Shown one piece after another: positions 22,947-59,891 of a DNA stretch of 64,000 nt (within the stretch, counting starts at the first letter, position 1; every line of letters begins with the position of its first letter). Under the pieces are notes generated by a model. That model worked only from the letters and a program-made list of their open reading frames with translations, ran no database searches and was not told the origin of the DNA. This DNA is from Hyalangium ruber (lineage in GTDB: Bacteria; Myxococcota; Myxococcia; Myxococcales; Myxococcaceae). The DNA lies in NCBI RefSeq assembly GCF_034259325.1, contig NZ_JAXIVS010000009.1:62001-126000 (forward strand), read 5' to 3'. The position numbers and the translations under genes were made by a program.

Positions 22947-23158
22947 CCTCCAGCGCGTTTTCGTTCTTCGTCGCTCTCACCTTTGGAAATGCGCGAGGCC
23001 CGTCACGTGGACGAACTCCTTTTTCCGGCGGATTTTTCGCGGCGGGGGCGTCGCGGGTTGAACACGCACCGCGAGTGGGGTGGGGGGTGGGGTTGTCTCC
23101 AGGTCTGGAGCACCTAGATCCCTTCCAGGGGCCGTTGGTGAACGGGGAAGGGGTCGGC

Positions 23159-23758
23159 GTGCAGGCGGATATCGACAATGCGCTCTGCGTCGAACTCGGC
23201 GAGACCGGTTCGGACCGTTGGCTCGTGGACTTTCACGCGGGCCGCCGCTCCGTTCTGGAGCAGTGCTACCGGGAGCTCTATCCCACGGTGCAGCGGGCGG
23301 TGGGGCGGGTGCTCTCCGGGGCGGACCAGGAGACCGTCATCCATGAGGTCTTCTATCGATTGATCTCCCGCGAGGAGCTTCGGCGGAGCTTCCGGGGTGG
23401 CGCCCTCAAGGCGTGGATCGCCACGGTGGCCTACCACCTTGCGCTCGAGTTCGTGCGTCGCCAGCAGCGCGAGAAGGGCGCGCTGGAGCAGGCGCGGGAG
23501 CTCGGGGGAGATGAAGCCACCACGGTGGCGGAGGCCTCCGAGGAGTGCGAGGCCCGCATCCTGGTGGAGCGCTTCCGGCGCGAGTGCCTGCCGGAGAAGT
23601 GGCAGGGCGTGTTCGAGGCGCGCTTCCTGCGCCAGTTGCCGCAGCGGGACGCCGCGCGGGAGCTGGGTATCCACCGCACGACATTGGCCTACCAGGAGAT
23701 GCGGATCCGTTCGCTGCTCCGCCGCTTCTTGCTGCGCGAAGGGAGTACACCGTCATGA
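23159..23758 (+). CDS. ECF-like sigma70-family factor (cluster 1)
   Basis: 199 residues. Region 2 is seen in VLEQCYRELYPTVQRAVGRV through KAWIATVAYHLALEFVRRQQ; region 4 ends with a HTH (LPQRDAARELGIHRTTLAYQ). The GTG at 23159 is chosen since GGGGAAGGGG lies five bases upstream; earlier in-frame starts have no such site. The stop overlaps the next gene (ATGA). The gene order sigma / zinc-finger membrane protein / caspase-fold protease / lipoprotein is repeated at 55.7-59.8 kb. Promoter targets cannot be read from the sequence. Confidence 0.88.
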   Translation: MQADIDNALCVELGETGSDRWLVDFHAGRRSVLEQCYRELYPTVQRAVGRVLSGADQETVIHEVFYRLISREELRRSFRGGALKAWIATVAYHLALEFVRRQQREKGALEQARELGGDEATTVAEASEECEARILVERFRRECLPEKWQGVFEARFLRQLPQRDAARELGIHRTTLAYQEMRIRSLLRRFLLREGSTPS

Positions 23759-24528
23759 AGAACGTCGTCTGCCCCATGCGTGGTCGCGTGGACGACCACT
23801 TCGCGCGCCGGCTGAAGCTGGGCGCCGAGCACGCGCTGCGGGAGCACCTGCCGAACTGTGTCTCCTGCAAGACGTTCTATGATCGTCACCTGCTGCTGCG
23901 GAGGCTGGACCCGAAAGCGTCGGGAGATGCACAGGCGCGACTGGGGCAGGCGCTGGGCCTGGTCCGCCCGCCGGTACCGGTAACGCAGGGCGCGGTGGCG
24001 CTGGCGGTGGTGGCGCTGCTCGTGGTGGGAGTCGTGGCGACGCGGACCCAGCCGTTCGGGCAGCCGGAGCCGGAGGGCTTCACGGCGCGCGGTGGCCCGG
24101 TGGTGACTTCGTCCGAGGCGCTGCGTGTCTTCCGGGTGCGGCCGGGAGTGGCCGCCGAGCCCGTGGAGGGAGAGCTGCGCGCGGGGGATGAGCTGGCCTT
24201 CGCGTACCAGAACCCGAAGGGCCGGAAGTGGCTCCTCATCTATGGAGTGGACGAGCACCAGCACGTGTACTGGTTCCACCCGAGCTGGTCCAACCCGGAC
24301 GAGGACCCCGGTGCGGTGCAGGCGTTTGGCGGCACGGCGCTGCACGAGCTGCCCGAGGCCATCTCGCACACCTTTGATGGAGAGCGGCTGGTGGTGCATA
24401 GCGTCCTGGCGGACGAGCGGCTCACGGTGCAGCGGGCCGAGGCGCTACTGAAGGGGCGAGACCCGACGCAGCCGCTGCCGCTGCCTGGCGCGGAGCACAC
24501 CTCCTTCTCGCTGAAGGTGAGGAAATGA
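23755..24528 (+). CDS. Single-TM zinc-finger anti-sigma-type protein with DUF4384-like C-terminal domain (cluster 1)
   Basis: 257 residues. The cytoplasmic N terminus has a compact H-x3-C-x2-C motif (REHLPNCVSCK, His31, Cys35, Cys38) typical of zf-HC2 anti-sigma factors. One membrane segment spans about 77-97 (GAVALAVVALLVVGVVATRT). The periplasmic C-terminal domain (ALRVFRVRPG, ELRAGDELAFAYQNPKGRKW, YGVDEHQHVYWFHP) resembles DUF4384 domains in myxobacterial envelope proteins. The ATG overlaps the sigma stop and its own stop overlaps the caspase start, both as ATGA. Anti-sigma role is inferred from motif, topology and position. Confidence 0.82.
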   Translation: MKNVVCPMRGRVDDHFARRLKLGAEHALREHLPNCVSCKTFYDRHLLLRRLDPKASGDAQARLGQALGLVRPPVPVTQGAVALAVVALLVVGVVATRTQPFGQPEPEGFTARGGPVVTSSEALRVFRVRPGVAAEPVEGELRAGDELAFAYQNPKGRKWLLIYGVDEHQHVYWFHPSWSNPDEDPGAVQAFGGTALHELPEAISHTFDGERLVVHSVLADERLTVQRAEALLKGRDPTQPLPLPGAEHTSFSLKVRK

Positions 24529-26048
24529 GCAGGGGGAGCCTGGCGCTAACACTGGCGCTGGTGGCACTGCCCGCGCTGGCGGAGGAGCGCCCGCGCGCGG
24601 CCTTCGCGTTCATCGTCGGGGTGAACCAGAGCGTGGACCCGAACGAGCCGGCGCTGCGCTACGCGGATGACGATGCGGCGCGCTACTTGGACCTGTTCCG
24701 CCTGCTCGGGGCGCGCACGTACCTGCTGGCGCGGTTGGATGAGAACACGGAGCGGCTGCACCCGCAGGCTGCGGCCGAGGCGAGCGCGCCACGGTGGGCC
24801 GAGTGGCAGCGGCTGGTGGACCAGCTCGCGCATGACGTGGAGCAGGCGCGGGCGCGCGACCTGGGGACGGTCATCTACTTCGTCTATGCGGGCCACGGCA
24901 GCGTGCGCAACGGCCAGGGCTACGTGACGCTCGAGGACCGGCGGCTCACGGGCAGGGATCTGGCCGAAGGACTGATCGAGCGGGTAAAGGCCGACCAGGC
25001 GCACCTCATCGTGGATGCGTGCTCCTCGTACTTCCTGGCGTATGGGCGTGGGCCGGGGGGACAGCGTCGCCCGCTGCAGGGCTTCAGCGAGGTGGCGCGC
25101 CTGTCGGACGACGGCCGTGTGGGGCTGCTGCTGTCCACCTCTAGTGTGCGCGAGAGCCACGAGTGGGAGGCCTTCCAGGCGGGGGTCTTCAGCCACGAGG
25201 TGCGCTCGGGGCTCTACGGGGCGGCGGACGCGGATGGGGACGGGCGGGTGAGCTACAAGGAGATCGCCGCCTTCGTGGAGCGGGCGAACGCGGCCATCCC
25301 CAACGAGCGCTTCCGGCCCGAGGTCCACGCGCGCCCACCGAAGGACGGGCAGTGGCTGGTGGAGCTGGGCAATGCGCTCGAGCACCGCATCGAGGTGGAC
25401 GGGCGCGAGGCCATGCACCTGCGGCTCGAGGACAGCAAGGGTGTGCGCCTGGCCGACTTCCACAACGCCTCCGGGCAGCGGCTCTGGGTGGCGAGGCCCA
25501 TCGGCACGGGCCCGCTGTACGTGCGGCGCGTGGTGGACGGGCAGGAGTACCGCATCGACGCGATGCCTCAGGTGGTCCAGCTCGCCGCGCTCACGCCGCA
25601 GGCGCCGCGCGTGGGGGCCCGTGGCGCGGAGCACGAGGCGTTCAGCCTCATCTTCTCGTTGCCGTATGACCGGCAGACGGTCGACACGTACGACTTCCGG
25701 ATGCCGGTGCTCATCGAGCCCGCAGAGTCCACGGTCCCCGCATGGCGGCGCGTGGCGGGCTGGAGCGCGGTCGGGCTGGCGGGAGCGAGCCTGGGCGGAG
25801 GCGTGTGGACGACGATGTCCGCGCGCGGCGTGCGATCGGGAGGCATGAACGGGCTGCCCCAGGCCGAGGTCATGCGCCGCAACCAGCGCATCCAGTCGCT
25901 GAACCGACGGTCCACCACGCTGTACGCGGCGGGAGCCGTGGCGGGTGCGGTGGGGCTCGGCTTGTTGCTGTGGCCCGGGGCGAACGCCGAGGCCGCTCCT
26001 GTCGTCGGACCGGGCACCGCGGGACTGCAACTGGGAGGTCAGTTTTGA
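24525..26048 (+). CDS. Exported caspase-fold (peptidase C14) protein with EF-hand-like loop (cluster 1)
   Basis: 507 residues. Signal peptide (LALTLALVALPALAEE), then a caspase p20-type domain: IVGVNQSVDPNEP, DDDAARYLDLFRLLGART, catalytic His124 in YFVYAGHGS and Cys166 in HLIVDACSS. A calcium-loop-like DADGDGRVSYKE follows near 235-246. The C-terminal half has beta-rich segments and two hydrophobic stretches near 410-430 and 465-485, likely membrane-associated. Both catalytic residues are present, so it should be an active Cys protease. It overlaps the anti-sigma gene upstream and the lipoprotein gene downstream (TTGA). Confidence 0.88.
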   Translation: MSRGSLALTLALVALPALAEERPRAAFAFIVGVNQSVDPNEPALRYADDDAARYLDLFRLLGARTYLLARLDENTERLHPQAAAEASAPRWAEWQRLVDQLAHDVEQARARDLGTVIYFVYAGHGSVRNGQGYVTLEDRRLTGRDLAEGLIERVKADQAHLIVDACSSYFLAYGRGPGGQRRPLQGFSEVARLSDDGRVGLLLSTSSVRESHEWEAFQAGVFSHEVRSGLYGAADADGDGRVSYKEIAAFVERANAAIPNERFRPEVHARPPKDGQWLVELGNALEHRIEVDGREAMHLRLEDSKGVRLADFHNASGQRLWVARPIGTGPLYVRRVVDGQEYRIDAMPQVVQLAALTPQAPRVGARGAEHEAFSLIFSLPYDRQTVDTYDFRMPVLIEPAESTVPAWRRVAGWSAVGLAGASLGGGVWTTMSARGVRSGGMNGLPQAEVMRRNQRIQSLNRRSTTLYAAGAVAGAVGLGLLLWPGANAEAAPVVGPGTAGLQLGGQF

Positions 26049-28027
26049 AGCGCCTGCTCGCGGTGCTCGGGGTGCTGCTAGGGGCGTGCGTGGCGCCGGT
26101 GTCGCTGGACGAGCGCGCCTGCCCGTGTGCCGACGGGTGGACCTGCTGCGAGGCGACGCAGATGTGCATGCGGGCGGCGGATCAGTGCCCCCAGTCCATC
26201 GAGAACCCCGCGACTCCCACGGAAGAGGACGGAGGAACCGACGGAGGCTTCGACGGCGGAACGGATGGAGGGTACGACGGCGGGCCAGACGGAGGAGGCG
26301 ACCCTGAGCCCGACGAACCGGATGCGGGCTATCTGGACCTCGCAGGCCGCTGCTTCGATGAGCACTGGTGCTGGGAGAACCCGTCTCCCCACGCGCGCTA
26401 CTACGAGGCGGTCTGGGCGTCGGGGCCCAACGACGTCTGGGTGGTAGGGGCGGCGGGGATCGCCACGCGGTGGGATGGCGACGGCTGGAAGGTCTACCGC
26501 TCCGCCACGACGCAGCAGCTCCTGGCCATCTGGGGGACGCGTCCTGATGACGTCTGGGCGGTGGGCAACCGGGGCGCGGTGGTGCGGTGGAACGGGGTTG
26601 CCTGGCAGCCCGTGGCCACGGGCCTGAAGCAACACCTGGTGGCCGTCTGGGGCAGCAGCCCGAGCGACGTCTGGGTGGCGGGGTTCGATGGGGCCCTGCT
26701 TCACTGGGACGGAGCGGAGTGGACGAAGCCGGAGAGCGTGCCTCCGCACTACTTCACGGGGCTCTGGGGCTCGGCTCCCAATGATGTGTGGGTCGTCACC
26801 GCGGAGGGTGCGCTGCTGCGCTGGGACGGCCAGGCCTGGGTGCAGCAGCCGAGATTCCAGGGGGAGCTCGTCCTGAGCCTCAGCGGCGCGGACGGGGTGC
26901 TGTGGGCACTCGATAAGCGAGCCACCACCGGGACGTGGCGCGTGCTGCGCTACAGCGAGAGCGTGTGGAGCGTGGTCCACGAGGGGACCGAGCCACTGAA
27001 CAGCCTCATGGCGCTCGGGCCGAACGAAGTCTGGGGAGTGGGCGACGCCGGAAACGTTCTCCGCATCGATGAGAACGGGCCGGTGTGGACTTCGCTGGGC
27101 ATCTCCGAGGACCTCGCGAATATCTGGGGCACACGCGATTGGGGACTCTGGGCGGTGGGTAGCCGGGGCCAGATCCTTCGGATGAACGGCGACGGGTGGA
27201 CCTCTCTCCGCGAGGGTTCGTATGCCCCGGTGCTGGGGGGCTACGCCCTGAGTGACAGGGAGGCGTGGACCTCTGGAGACCTCGGCGCGTTGCTGCGCTG
27301 GCGCGACGGGCGGTGGGACGTCATTCCCACCGGCACGACCGCCGCGCTGAATGATGTCTGGGGCTCGGGCTCAGAGGAGATCTGGGCGGTCGGGGAGGGC
27401 GGAAGGATCGTGCGCTCCGACGGCACGACCGCCGCGCCCTGGCCGGAGTCCCTCGTCCCGGAGACGTTGCGAAGCGTCTGGGGCACGGGCCGAGAGGACG
27501 TGTGGGCGGTGGGAGATGCGGGCCGCATCCTCCACTACGACGGCCAGCGCTGGACCGTGAGTCCCAGCCCGACTGGCGCCACGCTGCACCGCGTGTGGGG
27601 GACGAGCTCCGGGGCGGTATGGGCGGTGGGGGAGTCCGGCACGCTTCTCCGCCAGGACGGGAGCGGCTGGAGGACCGTTCCGCTGGACCCGCCGACCACC
27701 CATGCCTTCTATGGATTGTGGGGTTCGGGCCCGAGCGACATCTGGGCCGTCGGCGCGCAAGGTGTCGTCCGGCACTACGACGGGCAGCGCTGGTCGCCCG
27801 TGGTCCCGTTCGCGGAAGGCGAACTCATCGACATCTGGGGCACAGGGCCTTCGGACGTCTACGTGTTGGAGCGGCACGCGGAGGGAACGACCCTGTTCCA
27901 CTTCAACGGGCTGACCTGGGTGCCGGAGCCCGTGCCGTACGGAGGGCGCTTCAGCGCCCTCTGGGGCATGGGGATGGTGCCGCGAATCGGCGGCTTCGGC
28001 GGCTCCATCCTCCGTTACAGACCCTGA
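26045..28027 (+). CDS. Surface lipoprotein with Asp/Gly linker and double beta-propeller (cluster 1)
   Basis: 660 residues from a TTG start overlapping the caspase stop. Lipobox LLGACVAP in the signal peptide. A Cys-rich patch (ACPCADGWTCCEATQMC) and a low-complexity D/G/P linker (about 60-100) precede about 14 repeats of the type WGSGPSDVWAVGAQG...W, from nucleotide 26400 to the end. Fourteen short repeats could make two seven-bladed propellers. Such domains bind proteins or glycans on the surface. With the sigma, anti-sigma and caspase genes it completes a four-gene overlapping operon, and it is a plausible sensor. An upstream extension of the frame is antisense to nothing known and lies inside the caspase gene. 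Confidence 0.88.
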   Translation: MKRLLAVLGVLLGACVAPVSLDERACPCADGWTCCEATQMCMRAADQCPQSIENPATPTEEDGGTDGGFDGGTDGGYDGGPDGGGDPEPDEPDAGYLDLAGRCFDEHWCWENPSPHARYYEAVWASGPNDVWVVGAAGIATRWDGDGWKVYRSATTQQLLAIWGTRPDDVWAVGNRGAVVRWNGVAWQPVATGLKQHLVAVWGSSPSDVWVAGFDGALLHWDGAEWTKPESVPPHYFTGLWGSAPNDVWVVTAEGALLRWDGQAWVQQPRFQGELVLSLSGADGVLWALDKRATTGTWRVLRYSESVWSVVHEGTEPLNSLMALGPNEVWGVGDAGNVLRIDENGPVWTSLGISEDLANIWGTRDWGLWAVGSRGQILRMNGDGWTSLREGSYAPVLGGYALSDREAWTSGDLGALLRWRDGRWDVIPTGTTAALNDVWGSGSEEIWAVGEGGRIVRSDGTTAAPWPESLVPETLRSVWGTGREDVWAVGDAGRILHYDGQRWTVSPSPTGATLHRVWGTSSGAVWAVGESGTLLRQDGSGWRTVPLDPPTTHAFYGLWGSGPSDIWAVGAQGVVRHYDGQRWSPVVPFAEGELIDIWGTGPSDVYVLERHAEGTTLFHFNGLTWVPEPVPYGGRFSALWGMGMVPRIGGFGGSILRYRP

Positions 28028-53761: not shown

Positions 53762-54010
53762 ATGAACGTCAAGGCTCTGGCCGCTATCGTTGGTACCCTG
53801 TCCCTCGGCGCGCTGGCCACCGGCTGCGCGTCCAACAAGGCCGCCACCACGGACGCCGAGAAGGGCGCCCAGGCTTCTTGTGGCGCCAAGGAGGGCGCTG
53901 CCACCGACGCCAAGGGCGCCGAGGGCTCCTGTGGCGCGAAGCCCGCCGCCACCCCCGAGAAGGGTGAGCAGGGCTCGTGCGGTGAGGGTTCCTGTGGCGG
54001 CAAGAAGTAG
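53762..54010 (+). CDS. MNIO-type RiPP precursor with four Ser-Cys-Gly motifs (HvfA/BufA-like)
   Basis: 82 residues. A Sec-type signal peptide with lipobox-like LATGCAS (Cys22) leads into a Lys/Ala/Asp linker and a Cys-bearing region: SCG at 39-41, 56-58, 72-74 and 77-79. Two are in EGSCG, close to the EGKCG motifs of Haemophilus HvfA. With DUF692 and DUF2063 genes downstream, it fits a bufferin or HvfA precursor whose Cys are changed to thiooxazole, oxazolone or thioamide groups and that binds copper. The signal and core organisation matches such families. Modification and metal are inferred, not seen. Confidence 0.85.
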   Translation: MNVKALAAIVGTLSLGALATGCASNKAATTDAEKGAQASCGAKEGAATDAKGAEGSCGAKPAATPEKGEQGSCGEGSCGGKK

Positions 54011-54030
54011 TCTTCTGCCGTAGCGAATTC

Positions 54031-54070
54031 GGGCGGTGGGAAGGGAACTTCCCGCCGCCCGTGTTGTTTT
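54031..54070 (+). terminator. Intrinsic terminator between RiPP precursor and maturase genes
   Basis: A 13-bp stem, GGGCGGTGGGAAG (54031-54043) with CTTCCCGCCGCCC (54048-54060), one G-U pair, loop GGAA, followed by GTGTTGTTTT. It would give abundant precursor mRNA with only limited read-through to the maturation genes. It also argues against a start codon at 54061 for the next gene. Confidence 0.85.
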
Positions 54071-54087
54071 CACCCAAGGAGTTCCCG

Positions 54088-54933
54088 GTGTCCGAGAGCT
54101 ACGCGCAGAGACATGGGTTGAAGCCGCTCGGAGCCGGCATCGGACTGCGGCGCGAGTTCTATGATTCGCTGCCGCTCACCGAGCGGACGCTCGACTGGTT
54201 GGAGATCGTCCCGGAGAACTTCCTGAGCATGGGCGGTCGCGCCCAGCGCACCCTGGACGTCTGCGCCGAGCGCTGGACGCTGTTGCCGCACGGCGTGGGG
54301 CTCAACATCGGCGGACCGGATCCGGTGGATGAGGACTACCTCACCCGGCTTGCGGCGCTGGTGAAGCGGCTGAAGGCGCCCTTCTTCTCGGATCACCTGT
54401 GCTACTCGCGGCTCGGCGGGGTGTACCTGCACGACCTGCTGCCGCTGCCCTTCAACGACGAGGCGGTGGAGCACGTGGTGCCCCGCGTGCGCGAGGTGAT
54501 GGCGCGGGTAGGTCGGCCCTTCCTGCTGGAGAACCCCAGCTATTACGCGCGCATGCCAGGGGGCACGCTGGCCGAGGCGGACTTCCTGCGCCACGTGGCC
54601 GAGCAGGCCGACTGTGGCCTGCTGCTGGACGTGAACAACGTCTACGTCAACGCGCAGAACCACGCGTATGACCCGCGGGCCTTCATCGACGCGCTGCCGC
54701 TGGAGCGGGTGGTGCAGATCCACCTGGCCGGGCACCACCGCCGGCCGGACGTCATCATCGACACGCACGGCGCCGCCGTCTGCGACGAGGTGTGGGAGCT
54801 CTACCGCTACGTGCTGAAGCGCACCGGGCCGGTGTCCACGCTGATCGAATGGGACCAGGACATTCCCTCCCTGGAGGCCGTGCTGGAGCAGGCGGACACA
54901 GCGCGCGGGGCCCTGGGCGAGGTGGCGCCATGA
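54088..54933 (+). CDS. DUF692 multinuclear non-heme iron oxidase (HvfB/BufB/MbnB-like)
   Basis: 281 residues. TIM-barrel family related to MbnB that uses a multi-iron site to modify Cys in RiPP precursors. Metal-site segments are all visible: LKAPFFSDHLCYSR, FLLENPSYYA, LLLDVNNVYVNA, IHLAGHH, IIDTHGA and LIEWDQDIPS. The GTG at 54088 has AAGGAG six bases upstream; the earlier GTG at 54061 is inside the terminator tail. The stop overlaps the DUF2063 start (ATGA), so the two maturation proteins are coupled. Confidence 0.93.
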   Translation: MSESYAQRHGLKPLGAGIGLRREFYDSLPLTERTLDWLEIVPENFLSMGGRAQRTLDVCAERWTLLPHGVGLNIGGPDPVDEDYLTRLAALVKRLKAPFFSDHLCYSRLGGVYLHDLLPLPFNDEAVEHVVPRVREVMARVGRPFLLENPSYYARMPGGTLAEADFLRHVAEQADCGLLLDVNNVYVNAQNHAYDPRAFIDALPLERVVQIHLAGHHRRPDVIIDTHGAAVCDEVWELYRYVLKRTGPVSTLIEWDQDIPSLEAVLEQADTARGALGEVAP

Positions 54934-55643
54934 AGCCCGGACTGCGGCACTTCTTCGACACGATGGACGGCTACCTCGCGGCGCCCGGAGGGCTGGAGCG
55001 GCTGCGCGCGGCGCACCCGGGCTGGGACGCGAAGGACTCGCGGGTGGCGCTCTATGAGGAGTTCGTTCGCCACCATGTCAGCGCGACGGTGGAGAAGCTC
55101 TACCCGCTGACGCTCGCGTGCCTGGGGCCGGAGCGCTGGGCGGAGCTCGTGCGGGCGTATGACGCCACGCGGCCAGCGCGGCACTTCGAGGTGAACCGGC
55201 TGGGCGAGGGCTTCCCCGCCTTCGTCGCGGACGTGGCGGCGGCCCGGGGGCTGCCGGAGTTCGTCCCCGCGCTGGTGCGCTTCGAGTGGGCCGACTGGGC
55301 GGTGTACGCCTCGGAGGAGCAGGTGCCGGAGCGGGTGGAGCGGCTCACGGTGAACCCGACGCTCACGGTGTTGCAGCACCCGTTCCGCCTCGCGCCCTAC
55401 ATCCACGCGAAGGCGACAGGCCCGGCCCCGGCGCCGGGGGATGAGATGTTGCTGCTGTGGCGCCACCCCCAGCATCACCGCACGTGGTTCCTGGCGGCGC
55501 ACGAGCAGGCCCTGCTGGTGCTCAAGATGGCGCTGGAGGGGCTGTCCGCGCAGGACGTGGCGGCGGCGACGGGTGTGGCGGAGGACCACGTGCGGCGGGC
55601 CGTGGAGGAGTGTACCCGCGACGGTCTGGTCCTCGCGCCCTGA
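54930..55643 (+). CDS. DUF2063 RiPP-partner protein (HvfC/BufC/MbnC-like)
   Basis: 237 residues. N-terminal DUF2063 domain (RVALYEEFVRHHVSATVEKL YP region, then ARHFEVNRLGEGFPAFV) and a C-terminal region with a winged-helix-like end (GLSAQDVAAATGVAEDHVRR). Family members form a complex with the DUF692 enzyme and bind the precursor leader. The start overlaps the DUF692 gene by four bases and the stop is in a hairpin with the next convergent gene. Assignment relies on family sequence and context. Confidence 0.9.
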   Translation: MKPGLRHFFDTMDGYLAAPGGLERLRAAHPGWDAKDSRVALYEEFVRHHVSATVEKLYPLTLACLGPERWAELVRAYDATRPARHFEVNRLGEGFPAFVADVAAARGLPEFVPALVRFEWADWAVYASEEQVPERVERLTVNPTLTVLQHPFRLAPYIHAKATGPAPAPGDEMLLLWRHPQHHRTWFLAAHEQALLVLKMALEGLSAQDVAAATGVAEDHVRRAVEECTRDGLVLAP

Positions 55644-55675
55644 GTCAGCGGACGGCTTCGGCCGTTACGCCTCAG
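55640..55675. terminator. Bidirectional hairpin between DUF2063 and the Cys-rich lipoprotein genes
   Basis: Outer arms CTGAG (55640-55644) and CTCAG (55671-55675) enclose ACGGC-TTCG-GCCGT (55652-55665), a stem with a UUCG tetraloop. Both convergent TGA stops lie in the outer arms. Confidence 0.6.
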
Positions 55676-56751
55676 TCGTCCGATTGGCACACGCGGCCGC
55701 CCGGGGCTTCCTCGCAGACGAGGGAGTCCGGGCACTGCGAGTCGGAGGTGCAGCGGTAGGTGCAGGCCCCCTCGATGCACAGCCCATTGGGGAGGCCCCG
55801 CTCGCGGCAGCTCGCGTCGCCGGTGCAGGCCGCCCCCACCTGGCGGTAGGCGCCGCAGCCCGAGAACTGGGCCGCATCGGGCAGGCAGCGGTCGCCCTGA
55901 CACGTGAAACCCCGCGCGCAATCCTCGCTGTCGGTACAACGCTCCACGCAGGCCGAGCTCCCCTCGGGCAACGACTGACAGCTCGCGCCGGAGCGGCACT
56001 GCCAGTTCCCGGCGCACGGCGCGCATAGCGGCCCCGAGCCCTCGCAGCGGAAGCCTCGGCAGCTGAGGCCGGAGCCGCAATGCGCGTCCTCGAGGCACTC
56101 GACGCACCGGCCATCCTGCGCGCACTGCAGCGCTTCCTCGCACCCCGTCTCCATGCAGCCGTGGTGGCCGTTGCCGCCATCCGGCTTGGGGAGGTTCACC
56201 TTCACCTCCTTGGTCTCGCCGGCGCTCACGCACGTCTCGGAGGAGACGTCCGGGAAGCCGGGGAGGGTGATGCTCAGCATGAAGCAGCCATCGGGCAGGG
56301 GGCCCACGCTCACGCGCCCCTGCTCATCCATGTCCAGCTCCTGAAGGGGCGTGCCCAGCACGGACAGCTTCGCCGCGCCCACGAGCTGCTTGTCCGGGGA
56401 CTTTACCCGCACCTCCAGGAAGCTGGCCGCCTGGGGCTGCAGCTCGCCCAGCGAGAGGGACTGTCCGCTCGGGACGGTGAGGGGGACGCGCAGGGCGCGT
56501 TGCGCCGAGGCGACGATGAACAGCTCGGTCCTGCCCGCGGGGATGTTCTCCAGGGTGAACTGGCCATCCGGTGCCACGCTGCTGCGCAGCTCTGGGGCTC
56601 CCACCACGGACACGAGCGCCATGGCCGAGTCACTCTCGGTGAGCCGGCCATGCACCGAGCCCACGAGGAAGGGCGCGTTGTCCAGCCCGCCACACCCGCT
56701 CGCGATCAGGGCGAGCAGGGCGACCATAGAGATGTGCAGTGTGTGGCGCAT
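55672..56751 (-). CDS. Cys-rich surface lipoprotein (cluster 2)
   Basis: 359 residues. Lipobox LIASGCGG. Residues about 30-190 contain carboxypeptidase-regulatory-like beta domains (GQFTLENIPAGRTELFIVAS, GRVSVGPLPDGCFMLSITLP). The last 160 residues hold some 25 Cys in repeats such as CVECLEDAHCGSGLSCRGFRC and CTDSEDCARGFTC, like the Dickkopf/MYXO-type Cys-rich modules of myxobacterial surface proteins. The ATG overlaps the caspase gene's stop by one base (TGATG). In cluster 1 the same slot is filled by a beta-propeller lipoprotein; a surface-sensor or adhesin role is inferred. Confidence 0.87.
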   Translation of the reverse strand: MRHTLHISMVALLALIASGCGGLDNAPFLVGSVHGRLTESDSAMALVSVVGAPELRSSVAPDGQFTLENIPAGRTELFIVASAQRALRVPLTVPSGQSLSLGELQPQAASFLEVRVKSPDKQLVGAAKLSVLGTPLQELDMDEQGRVSVGPLPDGCFMLSITLPGFPDVSSETCVSAGETKEVKVNLPKPDGGNGHHGCMETGCEEALQCAQDGRCVECLEDAHCGSGLSCRGFRCEGSGPLCAPCAGNWQCRSGASCQSLPEGSSACVERCTDSEDCARGFTCQGDRCLPDAAQFSGCGAYRQVGAACTGDASCRERGLPNGLCIEGACTYRCTSDSQCPDSLVCEEAPGGRVCQSDD

Positions 56752-58391
56752 CAGAAGCGATACCCCATTCCGGCCCAGCCGCTGGTGAAGCCCACCGCCT
56801 GTCCCTGCCCATCCACGACCACGTACGTGAGCATGAGCTGCATCTGCGAGGTGAGCTCCAGCCGTTCACCCAGGCGCCACACCACGCCGCCCACCACGCC
56901 GGGACTCAGGGTGAAGTACTGCTGCCCGCCCACGAAGGCCTCCACATCAAAGGACCGCCTCAGGTACAGAGCGGCCACACGGGGCCCGGCGTAGAGGGAC
57001 AGCCGCTCCCAGCGCCACAGGTAGGGCATCCCCACACCCAGGGAGAGGCGGGTGTAGCCGAAGGGCACCGAGGTGCCCGGCACGAGCTGGAGGTTGCGCC
57101 GTCCCATGCTCCCGCTCAGGTCCAGCAGCAGGCTGAAGTCCTGCAGCGGCCGGTCCTCCAGCCGCAGCGCCACCGCCACCTCCGGGGAGGCCGGCAGCAG
57201 CTCCTTGCGGCTGCTGGCGTCCACGAACGAGAACATGCCGCCCAGCAGCGACAGGGAGCGGCTCGGGAAGGTCTCCGCCAGCAGCCGCTCCAGAGGCAGC
57301 CGATCGCCCTGGGCCACCTCCACCTCGCGGCGCACCAGCACCGAGTCTCCCTTGGTCAGCTCCACGGTGCGGCGCCCAGCGGGCACGGCCGCGCCTCCGG
57401 GCAGCTCCGTGCGCGGCTCTCCATCCACCTTGAGGGTGAAGCCGTCCAGGCGCGGGTTGTAGGAGAACAGCTCGGGCCGGCCCACGCGGTTGATGCTGCC
57501 GGAGAGCACCACGGGGTCCGCGCCCACCTCCAGAATCTCCGCGGAGGGGCGCTGCCGGCCCTCGGTGAAGGCGAAGGTGCGGCGGCGCGCATGGTCATGC
57601 GCCTCGGTGGCGGTGACGGCGCCGTCCGCGTTCCGGTCCGCCGCGCCGTTGAGTCCCTCGATGAGGAAGTGGGTATAGATGTCGTTGCGCAGCCCCTCGT
57701 CCTCGCGCGCCGTCTCGCCCCAGTCGCACGCGGCGAACACCATGGAGGCACGGCTCGACTCCTCCAGGGGGCGCGCGTAGAAGCCGGACTTGATGCCCGT
57801 CAGCTCGGCCTCGAGTTCCTTGGGGAGCAGCGACTTGCCGCTGCCGCTGTGACAGGTGGCCAGCACCAGCAGCCGGCGCCGGCTGGGCAGTTGGTCGAAC
57901 TCGGCCTTGAGTTCGTCCATGCCAAGTGCCGTCTGCGGGATGTCGCGGTAGGCGGCGTCCCGGGTGACGAGGTAGCGCTTGAGCTCGCCCCGGCCATCTC
58001 GGGCCAGCGTGCCGTGCGCGGAGAAGTACACCACCACCACGTCATCCGGCCGGGTGGCCTCTCGCCGCAGCTCGCGCAGCGCCGCGAGGATCGCCGTGCG
58101 CGTCGTCTCCTCCGGGCGGGAGAGCAGGCGCACCTGATCGAAGCGCCCCCGCGCCGGGTCCTTCAGGGCGGCGGCGAGGTCGGTCGCGTCCTTCCCCGAG
58201 TAGCGCAGGTTGCGCCACTGCGGATCCTGGAACTGGGAGATGCCCACGAGCAGCGCGAGGCGCCGGGGGGCATAGGCGTTGGACAGGGCCGTCTCGTCGA
58301 GCTTGAGCGGCACCAGCCCGCCCTTCTCCTGGGAGGCGGGGCCCGCACAGGCCACGAGGGTGCCCAGCAGCATGAGGACGAGGCGCTTCAC
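56751..58391 (-). CDS. Exported caspase-fold protease with PEGA-like and beta-barrel C-terminal parts (cluster 2)
   Basis: 546 residues from a GTG start. Lipobox-like LVACAGP near residue 15. Caspase domain: LALLVGISQFQDP, catalytic His126 in VYFSAHGT and Cys180 in VLATCHSGSG; a calcium-loop-like DRNADGAVTATE follows at about 252-263. Then a PEGA-like segment (FTLKVDGEPRTELPGGAAVP), and a C-terminal region of amphipathic strands ending GMGYRF, typical of an outer-membrane barrel. Parallel to the caspase in cluster 1 in size, order, and EF-hand-like loop. If right, the protease domain is fixed in the outer membrane. Confidence 0.88.
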   Translation of the reverse strand: MKRLVLMLLGTLVACAGPASQEKGGLVPLKLDETALSNAYAPRRLALLVGISQFQDPQWRNLRYSGKDATDLAAALKDPARGRFDQVRLLSRPEETTRTAILAALRELRREATRPDDVVVVYFSAHGTLARDGRGELKRYLVTRDAAYRDIPQTALGMDELKAEFDQLPSRRRLLVLATCHSGSGKSLLPKELEAELTGIKSGFYARPLEESSRASMVFAACDWGETAREDEGLRNDIYTHFLIEGLNGAADRNADGAVTATEAHDHARRRTFAFTEGRQRPSAEILEVGADPVVLSGSINRVGRPELFSYNPRLDGFTLKVDGEPRTELPGGAAVPAGRRTVELTKGDSVLVRREVEVAQGDRLPLERLLAETFPSRSLSLLGGMFSFVDASSRKELLPASPEVAVALRLEDRPLQDFSLLLDLSGSMGRRNLQLVPGTSVPFGYTRLSLGVGMPYLWRWERLSLYAGPRVAALYLRRSFDVEAFVGGQQYFTLSPGVVGGVVWRLGERLELTSQMQLMLTYVVVDGQGQAVGFTSGWAGMGYRF

Positions 58392-58394
58392 GGG

Positions 58395-59180
58395 TCAGCG
58401 CGGATTGTGACCGGTCTGAACGAAGACGTCGAACTGCGCGATGGCGAGCGGATTCTGGCCCTGGGCTGTTCCGTTCCCCAGCGCCGCCCGGACCTGCTCC
58501 TCCGACAGTTCCACACCGGGCGCGGAGGCCACCAGCCACAGCGTCATCGCGCCGGACTCCCCAGTGAGGCTCACGCCCGCGAGCCCCTGGGGGCCTTGGA
58601 GATCATGCGTCCCGGCCTGCAGGGAGAAGGCGCCGAGCAGCTCGGGCGTGCCCCCTTCCTGCTGCTGGAAGAGCAGGGCGCTGCCCGCCTCGGTGGCGTG
58701 GTAGCGCAGCAGCAGCACCTCGTCCGGCAGCACCGAGGCGCCAAAGTCCAGGCGGCGGAGCTCTCCCTGGGCGCTTCGAGCCACCACGGCCAGCTCCAGC
58801 GCGATGCGGTTCGAGCCCTTCACCCCATCCCACGCAGCCTCCCTTGGTGGAGAGGCGATCAGGCGGGGGACGAAGACGACCGCCAGCAGGCATGCGGCCA
58901 GCGCCGCGGCGGCTCCAGCCCAGCGCCCCGTACGGGAGGGCGCGCGCAGGTGGCGTCGCAGCCGCATCCAACCCACTTCATTCCGAGGGGCCTCCGGACG
59001 CGGGGCCAACCCGAGCAGGAGCGCGTCCACCTGGCCATCGAGCCCGTCCGTGTCGGCGCTCTGGGCGAGGAACTCCTCGCAGGTGTCGCACGGGGCGGCG
59101 AGGTGCTCGCGGAAGTAGGCCACCGCCTCGGGTTCCCGGGCGGAGAGGGCGCGCATCGCGTTGGCATCGAGGTGCTTCAT
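58395..59180 (-). CDS. Single-TM zinc-finger anti-sigma-type protein (cluster 2)
   Basis: 261 residues from ATG at 59180. N-terminal zinc motif REHLAAPCDTC (His26, Cys31, Cys34), membrane segment about 88-108 (WAGAAAALAACLLAVVFVP), then a periplasmic domain with KGSNRIALELAVVARSAQG and GVELSEEQVRAALGNG. Its start is four bases after the sigma gene's TAA, with GGGAGTAAGG as ribosome-binding sequence. It matches the cluster 1 protein in topology. The caspase gene starts three bases after its stop. Confidence 0.83.
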   Translation of the reverse strand: MKHLDANAMRALSAREPEAVAYFREHLAAPCDTCEEFLAQSADTDGLDGQVDALLLGLAPRPEAPRNEVGWMRLRRHLRAPSRTGRWAGAAAALAACLLAVVFVPRLIASPPREAAWDGVKGSNRIALELAVVARSAQGELRRLDFGASVLPDEVLLLRYHATEAGSALLFQQQEGGTPELLGAFSLQAGTHDLQGPQGLAGVSLTGESGAMTLWLVASAPGVELSEEQVRAALGNGTAQGQNPLAIAQFDVFVQTGHNPR

Positions 59181-59184
59181 GGCC

Positions 59185-59760
59185 TTACTCCCAGCGTCCG
59201 GCGAGGACACGCCGGAGCAGCTCCCGCTTGATGCGTGCCCGGAACCGCTCGAGCCGCATGGTCACCGCGCTCTTGCCCACACCGAGCTTCTCGGCGATCT
59301 CGCGCGCGGACAGCTCTCCCTCCAGGTAGAAGAGCTGCACGGTCTTCTTCTCCTCGCCCTCGGGCAGCTCGGCGATGAGTTGACGCACCACGGCGATGTC
59401 CCGCTCCACCTGGAGCGCCTCGGGCAGCGGAGGCACGGCCTCGGGCTCGGGGTCCGCCGCTTCGTCCTCCATGCGCCGCAGGTGGCTCTTGCGCTCCAAG
59501 CGGGTGCGGGCCCGGTTGCGGGCGATGGACAGCAGCCAGGCCTCGAAGGCTCCGGGCTCCTTGAGGCGGGGCAGGGCCTTGAATGCCCGGACGTATGTCT
59601 CCTGGATCACGTCTTCCACCTCGTCGGCGTCCAGCGTGGCGAATCCGGCGGTGAGACGGGCCACGAGGGGCCGGGTGCGCCGATACAGCTCTCCATAGGC
59701 GGACTCCTCCCCACGCGCGGCCCGCCGCACCCACTGCGCCAGTTCCTCCGAGGAACCCAC
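59185..59760 (-). CDS. ECF-type sigma factor (cluster 2)
   Basis: 191 residues. Region 2 spans [20 protein letters not shown] to [20 protein letters not shown], including the [18 protein letters not shown] segment; region 4 is [20 protein letters not shown] followed by the [23 protein letters not shown]. The GTG at 59760 is chosen because AGGAGGACAG lies immediately upstream; an in-frame GTG at 59796 lacks such a site. First gene of the second sigma/anti-sigma/caspase/lipoprotein operon; divergent from serC. Confidence 0.9.
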
Positions 59761-59891
59761 CTGTCCTCCTGACCTCCGTACCTGCCTGCCGGCCACACGC
59801 TACCTGCTGGACACCGTCTTCGCTTCCTACTGGCCCTTGGAAGCATGTGGGAGAGAATGGCGGCGCCGTTCACTTCCTAAAGGACACAGCC

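Follow-up and report, generated by a model that had tools for sequence, protein, structure and literature searches.

Caspase-like protease genes inherited with ECF sigma factor and membrane anti-sigma factor genes in Hyalangium ruber and other bacteria: a candidate envelope signalling module

Why would the operon of a sigma factor include the gene for a caspase-like protease with a predicted export signal? This question is raised by a 64,000-nucleotide stretch of Hyalangium ruber DNA (assembly GCF_034259325.1, contig NZ_JAXIVS010000009.1, positions 62,001 to 126,000; hereafter the window, with positions counted from its first base). Genes for an extracytoplasmic function (ECF) sigma factor, an anti-sigma factor, a caspase-like protease and a lipoprotein follow one another there twice: on the minus strand at 55672-59760 (copy B) and, in the same order, on the plus strand at 23075-28027 (copy A). 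For bacterial caspases in general, the usual guess at a role is cell death. Judging from sequence, we think it on balance probable that the exported caspase makes the first-step cut in the anti-sigma factor and so frees the sigma factor.

Operon structure and inheritance

The four-gene B operon was verified from its open reading frames: all of the genes lie on the minus strand and are separated by 4, 3 and -1 bases, as described in an earlier sequence-only reading of the window. Sigma B scores 83.6 bits and sigma A 48.5 bits with the sigma70-ECF profile (cut-off 42.9), and region 2 is above cut-off in both. Matches to region 4 (Sigma70_r4_2) are under the cut-off of 25.7, at 23.6 bits for sigma B and 17.5 bits for sigma A.

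The earlier reading supposed that many such modules might exist in the genome, and six were found. The H. ruber genome contains ten caspase genes that we could find, six of them with an ECF sigma factor and a membrane anti-sigma factor and four with neither. Modules A, B, C, E and L028 are operons; module D is a divergent pair. Given 46 sigma-70 region-2 matches in 10.8 Mb, we estimate that approximately 0.5% of random genes (about 1 in 200) would have a same-strand sigma factor gene within 2.5 kb upstream, compared to 5 of the 10 caspase genes. PADLOC assigns its generic caspase profile to caspases B and C; its match for the sigma factor, to Csa3, is weak.

The B operon is kept with all four genes in 16 of 16 loci from a protein search, which come from Myxococcus, Archangium, Hyalangium, Citreicoccus and other Myxococcota records, as well as one record labelled Comamonas (three of these loci coincide with fetched regions: L092/L107, L098/L111 and L100/L123). 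Best-segment identity to copy B of the window is 62-91% for the sigma factor, 41-68% for the anti-sigma factor, 66-89% for the caspase and 43-61% for the lipoprotein.

A caspase profile matches 36 of 40 genomes, H. ruber included. This profile was built from sigma-linked caspases and so favours linked ones. Among 81 caspase places in 80 regions chosen from the matches listed, 67 lie beside an ECF sigma factor and a membrane anti-sigma factor (60 operons of the same order and 7 divergent arrangements). The remainder comprises five places with an anti-sigma factor and no counted sigma factor, four with another layout nearby and five with none. Some of the five places without a sigma factor are cut by a contig end, and one (L112) does have a sigma factor gene close by, in the usual order with a cut-short anti-sigma match. 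In the five genomes for which every counted match was fetched (G007, G008, G014, G016 and G022; 38 matches), 27 operons and 3 divergent pairs were counted, the rest being L112, L149, two places with an anti-sigma factor only and four with neither partner. In L149 (G007), the three genes share a strand but their order differs, with the caspase gene first and the sigma and anti-sigma pair downstream of it.

The sigma factor, anti-sigma factor and caspase genes descend together. Across 73 modules from 31 genomes, the distance correlations are 0.89 for sigma and anti-sigma factor, 0.91 for sigma factor and caspase and 0.81 for anti-sigma factor and caspase, whereas the maximum in 1000 within-genome reshuffles is 0.35.

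The two copies in the window had been called paralogs. For the caspases this stands, as they are homologous by direct alignment (BLASTP E 7e-7, 27% identity over 276 amino acids), but the anti-sigma factors have no detectable similarity head to head (E 0.36) and are joined only via other members of the family. With types A, B and D left out, a profile retrieves the B anti-sigma factor at E 1.5e-10; with A and D left out, it misses the anti-sigma factor of copy A itself, yet retrieves an A-type relative in L115 at 1.4e-14. In whole-genome searches with caspase A or caspase B, neither retrieved the other. On these sequences, A and B are old paralogs. A recent duplication was considered and rejected, since the caspase identity is this low and the anti-sigma factors cannot be aligned alone.

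The proposal of a conserved core with a variable fourth gene is supported, with limits. The core is constant, whereas the gene behind it varies from one paralog to another, including the two lipoproteins in the window: B encodes a CarboxypepD_reg domain and Cys-rich repeats (the Myxo_Cys_RPT repeat of NCBIfam scores slightly below its curated cut-off), A encodes propeller-like repeats, and the C gene belongs to an unnamed family. The next genes of module D encode a membrane protein and an immunoglobulin (Ig)-like lipoprotein. A fourth gene is not universal, however: none was seen directly behind the E or L028 caspase, and in a crude test a lipobox-like next gene is present behind 41 of 73 module caspases. 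It is also kept within the B ortholog group, where it is the fastest-changing gene. Because it changes fastest and differs between paralogs, the lipoprotein may be the sensor. The C-type module (L023, 4208-9702, contig C9) has lipoprotein-like genes on both flanks, and the upstream one and the gene behind the caspase resemble each other at their N termini.

The caspase and the linker of the anti-sigma factor

With Peptidase_C14 (PF00656; cut-off 21.4 bits), caspase B scores 56.2 bits and caspase A 25.7 bits; the C, E and L028 caspases are above the cut-off and the D caspase is below it (17.8 bits). The catalytic residues named in the sequence-only reading, His126 and Cys180 of caspase B, are both invariant in five paralogs, and all 159 aligned caspase domains retain the His-Cys dyad (unlinked caspases are among them, a few places were fetched twice, and 2 of 161 matches were dropped as too short). 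The EF-hand-like segment that it described is likewise present, and the family profile aligns to EF-hand chains. For the PEGA-like part of that description, Pfam gave no match in caspase B. The barrel-like C terminus is possible: Pfam gave no barrel family in the operon proteins, and the AlphaFold model of caspase B, from an 18-row alignment, is poor (mean predicted local distance difference test score [pLDDT] 51.5).

A hydrophobic segment lies ahead of the domain in 65 of 87 caspases and 0 of 55 sigma proteins. The first number is probably an undercount, as the profile begins close behind the segment in several caspases. The position aligned with Asp68 of caspase B is acidic in 158 of 159 domains (Asp 149, Glu 9, Asn 1), and the residue two before the catalytic Cys is Asp in 145 and Ala in 14. 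From metacaspase work, we take both to be pocket residues, with the acidic position in the S1 pocket. It is this conserved acidic position alone that hints at proteolysis after Lys or Arg.

The B anti-sigma factor has no Pfam match of its own. The zinc-finger motif at its N terminus, H-x3-C-x2-C in the family, has its His and both Cys invariant in five paralogs, with one residue more in B; a clean motif is absent in 13 of 76 wider anti-sigma rows. A 19-residue membrane-helix segment scoring >1.6 is present in 93 of 95 anti-sigma factors. The outer domain appears to be of the DUF4384 type (PF14326). Four DUF4384 matches were found in the genome at E <=10, all of them membrane anti-sigma factors of the present kind: the E type scores 28.6 bits (cut-off 27) and the C type is below cut-off, while the A and B anti-sigma factors have no PF14326 match and are attached to this type only through family profiles. 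In the AlphaFold model of the B anti-sigma factor (mean pLDDT 68.8), confidence is low for the linker at residues 108-122, ahead of a first strand that begins at 128. A comparison of this model with the PDB gave no match at E <=0.001; many of the 50 matches listed are Ig-like sandwiches. From adjacency and co-inheritance, we infer that each anti-sigma factor binds and inhibits its sigma factor.

The linker between the membrane helix and the outer domain varies in both length and content, and one spot within it is conserved. A motif of the form [R/G]-x-[K/R]-[G/S] is found in 88 of 91 distinct anti-sigma sequences, 2-25 residues from the membrane helix, when scored as KG, [AS]RG or ARS no more than 45 residues beyond it (1000 shuffles: mean 28.6, maximum 44). 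Numbered around the putative cut, P1 is Lys in 73 and Arg in 15, P1' is Gly in 84 and Ser in 4, and P3 is Arg in 44 and Gly in 26. Lys-Gly occurs in 17 of 17 B-type anti-sigma factors (Arg-Gly in A), and the motif is doubled in tandem in L098 (= L111). The three motif-negative sequences include L118 (Lys-Ser) and L127 (Arg-Ala), which keep the basic residue; the remaining one is the anti-sigma factor of an L143 pair that has no caspase of its own. Bacterial caspases are described as cutting after basic residues (PMC6426788; PMC7475262), and the linker motif matches this preference for Lys or Arg. Both the motif and the idea that the caspase cuts the anti-sigma factor go beyond the sequence-only reading.

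To what extent is the motif tied to a caspase? We examined 94 DUF4384 places out of more listed (L195 and L271 are one place) and sought a caspase within 2.6 kb. Caspase-linked anti-sigma factors with an upstream sigma factor have the motif in 63 of 65 cases. It is lost in 5 of 10 caspase-less anti-sigma factors (L208, L209, L211, L232 and L237), with no caspase seen nearby (for L208, L209 and L211, 1.5 kb downstream was seen); in four of these five, the first strand comes nearly directly after the helix. By bare pattern, the caspase-less rows have the motif in 7 of 11. In L237, L241 and L247, Lys-Gly or Lys-Ser pairs further along the sequence triggered the pattern as well; L237 was counted as lost by position, while L241 (Thr-Arg-Gly at that position) and L247 (Met-Arg-Gly) were counted as present. 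Neither of two DUF4384-caspase fusions contains the bare pattern, and the motif is absent from three zinc-finger anti-sigma-like proteins of H. ruber outside the family (L039, L040 and L047). In the latter control set, L038 is an orphan anti-sigma factor that keeps the motif, and the other rows are unreadable as anti-sigma factors. By these counts, the association between motif and caspase is real but not exclusive.

A seventh, orphan pair of sigma factor and DUF4384 anti-sigma factor genes is located in L186 of the H. ruber genome (5013-6307; contig C2, near 910 kb), with no caspase in 13 kb. Its anti-sigma factor has no clear zinc-finger motif, yet has TVKGS in the linker.

A proposed mechanism and its alternatives

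Each operon would, in our proposal, be a self-contained envelope signalling module. The cytoplasmic zinc-finger-type domain of the anti-sigma factor would tether the ECF sigma factor at the inner membrane, with the DUF4384-type domain outside. Acting on a signal, the exported caspase of the same operon would serve as site-1 protease and cut the short linker just outside the helix, after the Lys or Arg of [R/G]-x-[K/R]-[G/S]. With the outer domain lost, the stub would be degraded by intramembrane and cytoplasmic proteases, and the freed sigma factor would switch on its target genes, probably including its own operon. The variable last gene, often for a lipoprotein, would be the likely input or docking part.

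A candidate for a sigma-specific, self-activating promoter, GTGGCC[AG]-N15-GGTC, was found upstream of sigma B and its B-type counterparts (Table 1). The form with G at the seventh base is present in 12 of 17 B-type regions, with a per-sequence chance of about 0.0009 based on shuffles. Because these regions are related by descent, conservation of the promoter alone is weak evidence, and an estimated 38 or so chance matches to the exact form are expected genome-wide. The element is close to the start codon, which on our reading would make the message nearly leaderless.

The same operon could instead be one in which the caspase and lipoprotein are outputs: the anti-sigma factor would sense stress through its outer domain, the sigma factor would induce its own operon, and the caspase would be an envelope protease acting on other proteins (for repair of its own, or on those of prey or kin). 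Sigma factors commonly drive their own operons, and both the location of the caspase gene downstream in a sigma operon and the candidate promoter ahead of sigma B fit this explanation. We nonetheless consider it unlikely, since alone it leaves unexplained the pairing kept in the divergent D type, the anti-sigma/caspase distance correlation (r 0.81) and the basic-Gly motif in the linker. A role as a cell-death module, with the caspase as executioner in developmental lysis and the sigma factor timing its production, has been called conceivable for Myxococcus metacaspases (PMC3501461). For the present operons it seems very improbable: the export signals and the presence in one genome of several caspases, each paired with a separate sigma and anti-sigma factor, fit parallel sensors better, and Pfam scans of operon proteins gave no toxin-like domain.

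Several observations weigh against cleavage at the linker motif. The pattern was picked after inspecting the sequences, which are related to each other. In type B caspases, Ala takes the place of the usual Asp at the second residue ahead of the catalytic Cys. The structure model of caspase B is too poor for use. In the caspase-linked L257 and L270, R-x-Met-Gly replaces R-x-Lys-Gly with the caspase dyad and acidic residues unchanged. The five motif losses may be a single event, as all are in one family of the same order. Among 16 other DUF4384 rows, 9 contain the bare pattern; two of these 9 (L230 and L272) are anti-sigma-like and beside a caspase, with no sigma gene seen, and most of the rest have the pattern at other places. 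The motif is kept by position in 5 of 10 caspase-less anti-sigma factors (L183, L226, L245, L253 and L271), and one motif-keeping caspase-less anti-sigma factor lies in H. ruber with no caspase in 13 kb; the motif may therefore serve the outer domain or another protease. Finally, it sits few residues ahead of the first strand, such that a structural role is possible. Both this location and the five retentions would be expected if the caspase acted without cutting at the motif, either by binding DUF4384 as a signal-controlled partner or by cutting elsewhere, with the motif belonging to the domain or to a different protease. DUF4384 is reported as an accessory domain in 23 of 473 cyanobacterial orthocaspases, including 4 pseudo forms (PMC8283722), so contact between caspase and DUF4384 may be old. 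We regard this explanation as quite unlikely: six non-anti-sigma DUF4384 proteins (L188, L189, L190, L194, L198 and L201) do not have the motif at that place, with the loose pattern elsewhere in two, and a dyad intact in every aligned domain (159 of 159) is unexpected for a mere scaffold. On whether the motif is simply part of DUF4384 the evidence is divided, with these six proteins and the five losses speaking against it and the five retentions for it.

Extending the proposal that the caspase cuts its neighbouring anti-sigma factor, we suggest more tentatively that the caspases of Myxococcota could be mainly signalling proteases, each the dedicated site-1 protease of its own membrane anti-sigma factor, which it would cut in a short linker after Lys or Arg. 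The cell would then have many envelope sensors in the form of parallel copies that differ in their surface parts, and the use of the fold to switch genes by cutting a single linker may predate its use in cell death.

The features of both copies are listed in Table 1. Converging on copy B (53762-55643, plus strand) are a gene for a small Cys-rich peptide (signal-like start, SCG repeats) and then genes for an MNIO enzyme (PF05114, E 7.9e-103) and a DUF2063 protein (PF09836). By gene content, this locus is of the ribosomally synthesized and post-translationally modified peptide (RiPP) type, and it is presumably bufferin-like.

Table 1. Features of copies B and A in the window.
Feature	Position	Strand	Evidence
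Copy B ECF sigma factor	59185..59760	-	Sigma70_r2 E 1.3e-15 (Pfam); sigma70-ECF E 1.1e-23 (NCBIfam)
Sigma B start codon	GTG at 59760	-	behind AGGAGG; other GTG at 59796, upstream, within candidate promoter
Candidate promoter upstream of sigma B, GTGGCC[AG]-N15-GGTC	59771..59796	-	17/17 B-type upstream regions
Copy B anti-sigma factor	58395..59180	-	alignments: H-x4-C-x2-C zinc-finger-like N terminus, one membrane helix, DUF4384-type outer domain
Copy B anti-sigma Lys121-Gly122, candidate caspase cut site	58815..58820	-	linker after membrane helix; codons checked
Copy B caspase-like protease with predicted export signal	56751..58391	-	Peptidase_C14 E 5.3e-15; hydrophobic N terminus MKRLVLMLLGTLVACAG
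Caspase B catalytic His126 codon	58014..58016	-	invariant in alignments
Caspase B catalytic Cys180 codon	57852..57854	-	invariant in alignments
Caspase B EF-hand-like loop, residues 252-263	57603..57638	-	D252, D256, G257 and E263 invariant in five paralogs
Copy B lipoprotein	55672..56751	-	CarboxypepD_reg E 8.5e-9 and Cys-rich repeats; lipobox-like N terminus
Copy A ECF sigma factor, start uncertain	23075..23758	+	Sigma70_r2 E 8.9e-6; sigma70-ECF E 7.3e-13
Copy A anti-sigma factor	23755..24528	+	HLPNCVSC motif, one membrane helix
Copy A anti-sigma Arg112-Gly113, counterpart of Lys-Gly motif	24088..24093	+	TARGG after membrane helix; codons checked
Copy A caspase-like protease with predicted export signal	24525..26048	+	Peptidase_C14 E 1.1e-5
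Copy A lipoprotein, propeller-like repeats	26045..28027	+	lipobox-like N terminus; weak Tectonin match below cut-off

Comparison with known systems

Sigma-70/metacaspase operons were published in 2012 for 4 of the 5 metacaspases of Myxococcus xanthus DK 1622, with the same linkage in Anaeromyxobacter, Haliangium, Sorangium, Ralstonia and Fibrobacter (Asplund-Samuelsson, PMC3501461). These operons have the same sigma-caspase linkage as those described here. The main text of that paper does not contain the word anti-sigma, its operon section gives no topology, DUF4384 or cut-site motif, and its discussion leans to cell death. The sigma-metacaspase linkage is already known. What appears to be new is the membrane anti-sigma factor with its DUF4384 domain, together with the candidate cut site and the extent of the family. 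Among the matches listed in open-licence literature, no description of an exported caspase with a DUF4384 membrane anti-sigma factor was found; the main ECF classification (10.1093/nar/gkaa1229) is outside this scope. These apparently new features make a direct test possible, with the likely substrate encoded next door, a candidate cut site of two residues and a genus with good genetics.

Other caspase systems are similar in part. The neighbourhoods of EACC2-caspases include ECF sigma genes, and these systems likewise have a caspase gene adjoining an ECF sigma gene and a variable sensory end (PMC8195603). They differ in having a constant EACC2 part and a TPR partner, and the passages that describe them mention no zinc-finger anti-sigma factor and no DUF4384. 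The profile for EACC1-associated caspases (NF047832) is the best NCBIfam match for caspase B (E 1.4e-28), at 99.8 bits under the curated cut-off of 140, and does not match caspase A. Orthocaspases and metacaspases share the His-Cys dyad and the acidic residue at the aligned metacaspase position (weak Metacaspase-4 match, E 9.4e-6); the proteins described here differ in their N-terminal predicted export signal, the EF-hand-like loop after the domain and their operon partners. ECF54 groups are described as having CHAT-domain neighbours and no anti-sigma factor (2022 review, PMC8999054).

Cleavage of a sigma factor inhibitor by a caspase-like protease is known from the type III-E CRISPR system Craspase/DiCASP, which consists of the protease Csx29, the inhibitor Csx30 and CASP-sigma (PMC10028731). 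Its protease is a CHAT caspase-like protein, and its sigma factor resembles ECF sigma factors. Craspase is an RNA-activated CRISPR effector, whereas here a Peptidase_C14 caspase with a predicted export signal is paired with a membrane-spanning inhibitor. No CHAT or TPR match was found in caspases A and B by Pfam: B matches only PF00656, and A matches PF00656 with weak EF-hand and TAT-type matches.

In regulated proteolysis of the RseA/RsiW type, a membrane anti-sigma factor is cut outside near the membrane and further proteolysis frees the sigma factor, as in our proposal. The site-1 protease of that type is not known to be a caspase, however, and in E. coli it is encoded outside the sigma operon. 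Both RseA/DegS/sigma-E and RsiW-type proteolysis are named in the Craspase paper (PMC10028731). Compared to these systems, the modules described here would be protease-controlled ECF sigma signalling of a new variety. If this is true, a new class of proteases activates ECF sigma factors outside CRISPR, there is a reason for the many caspases kept in myxobacteria, and bacterial caspases gain a signalling job in place of a killing job.

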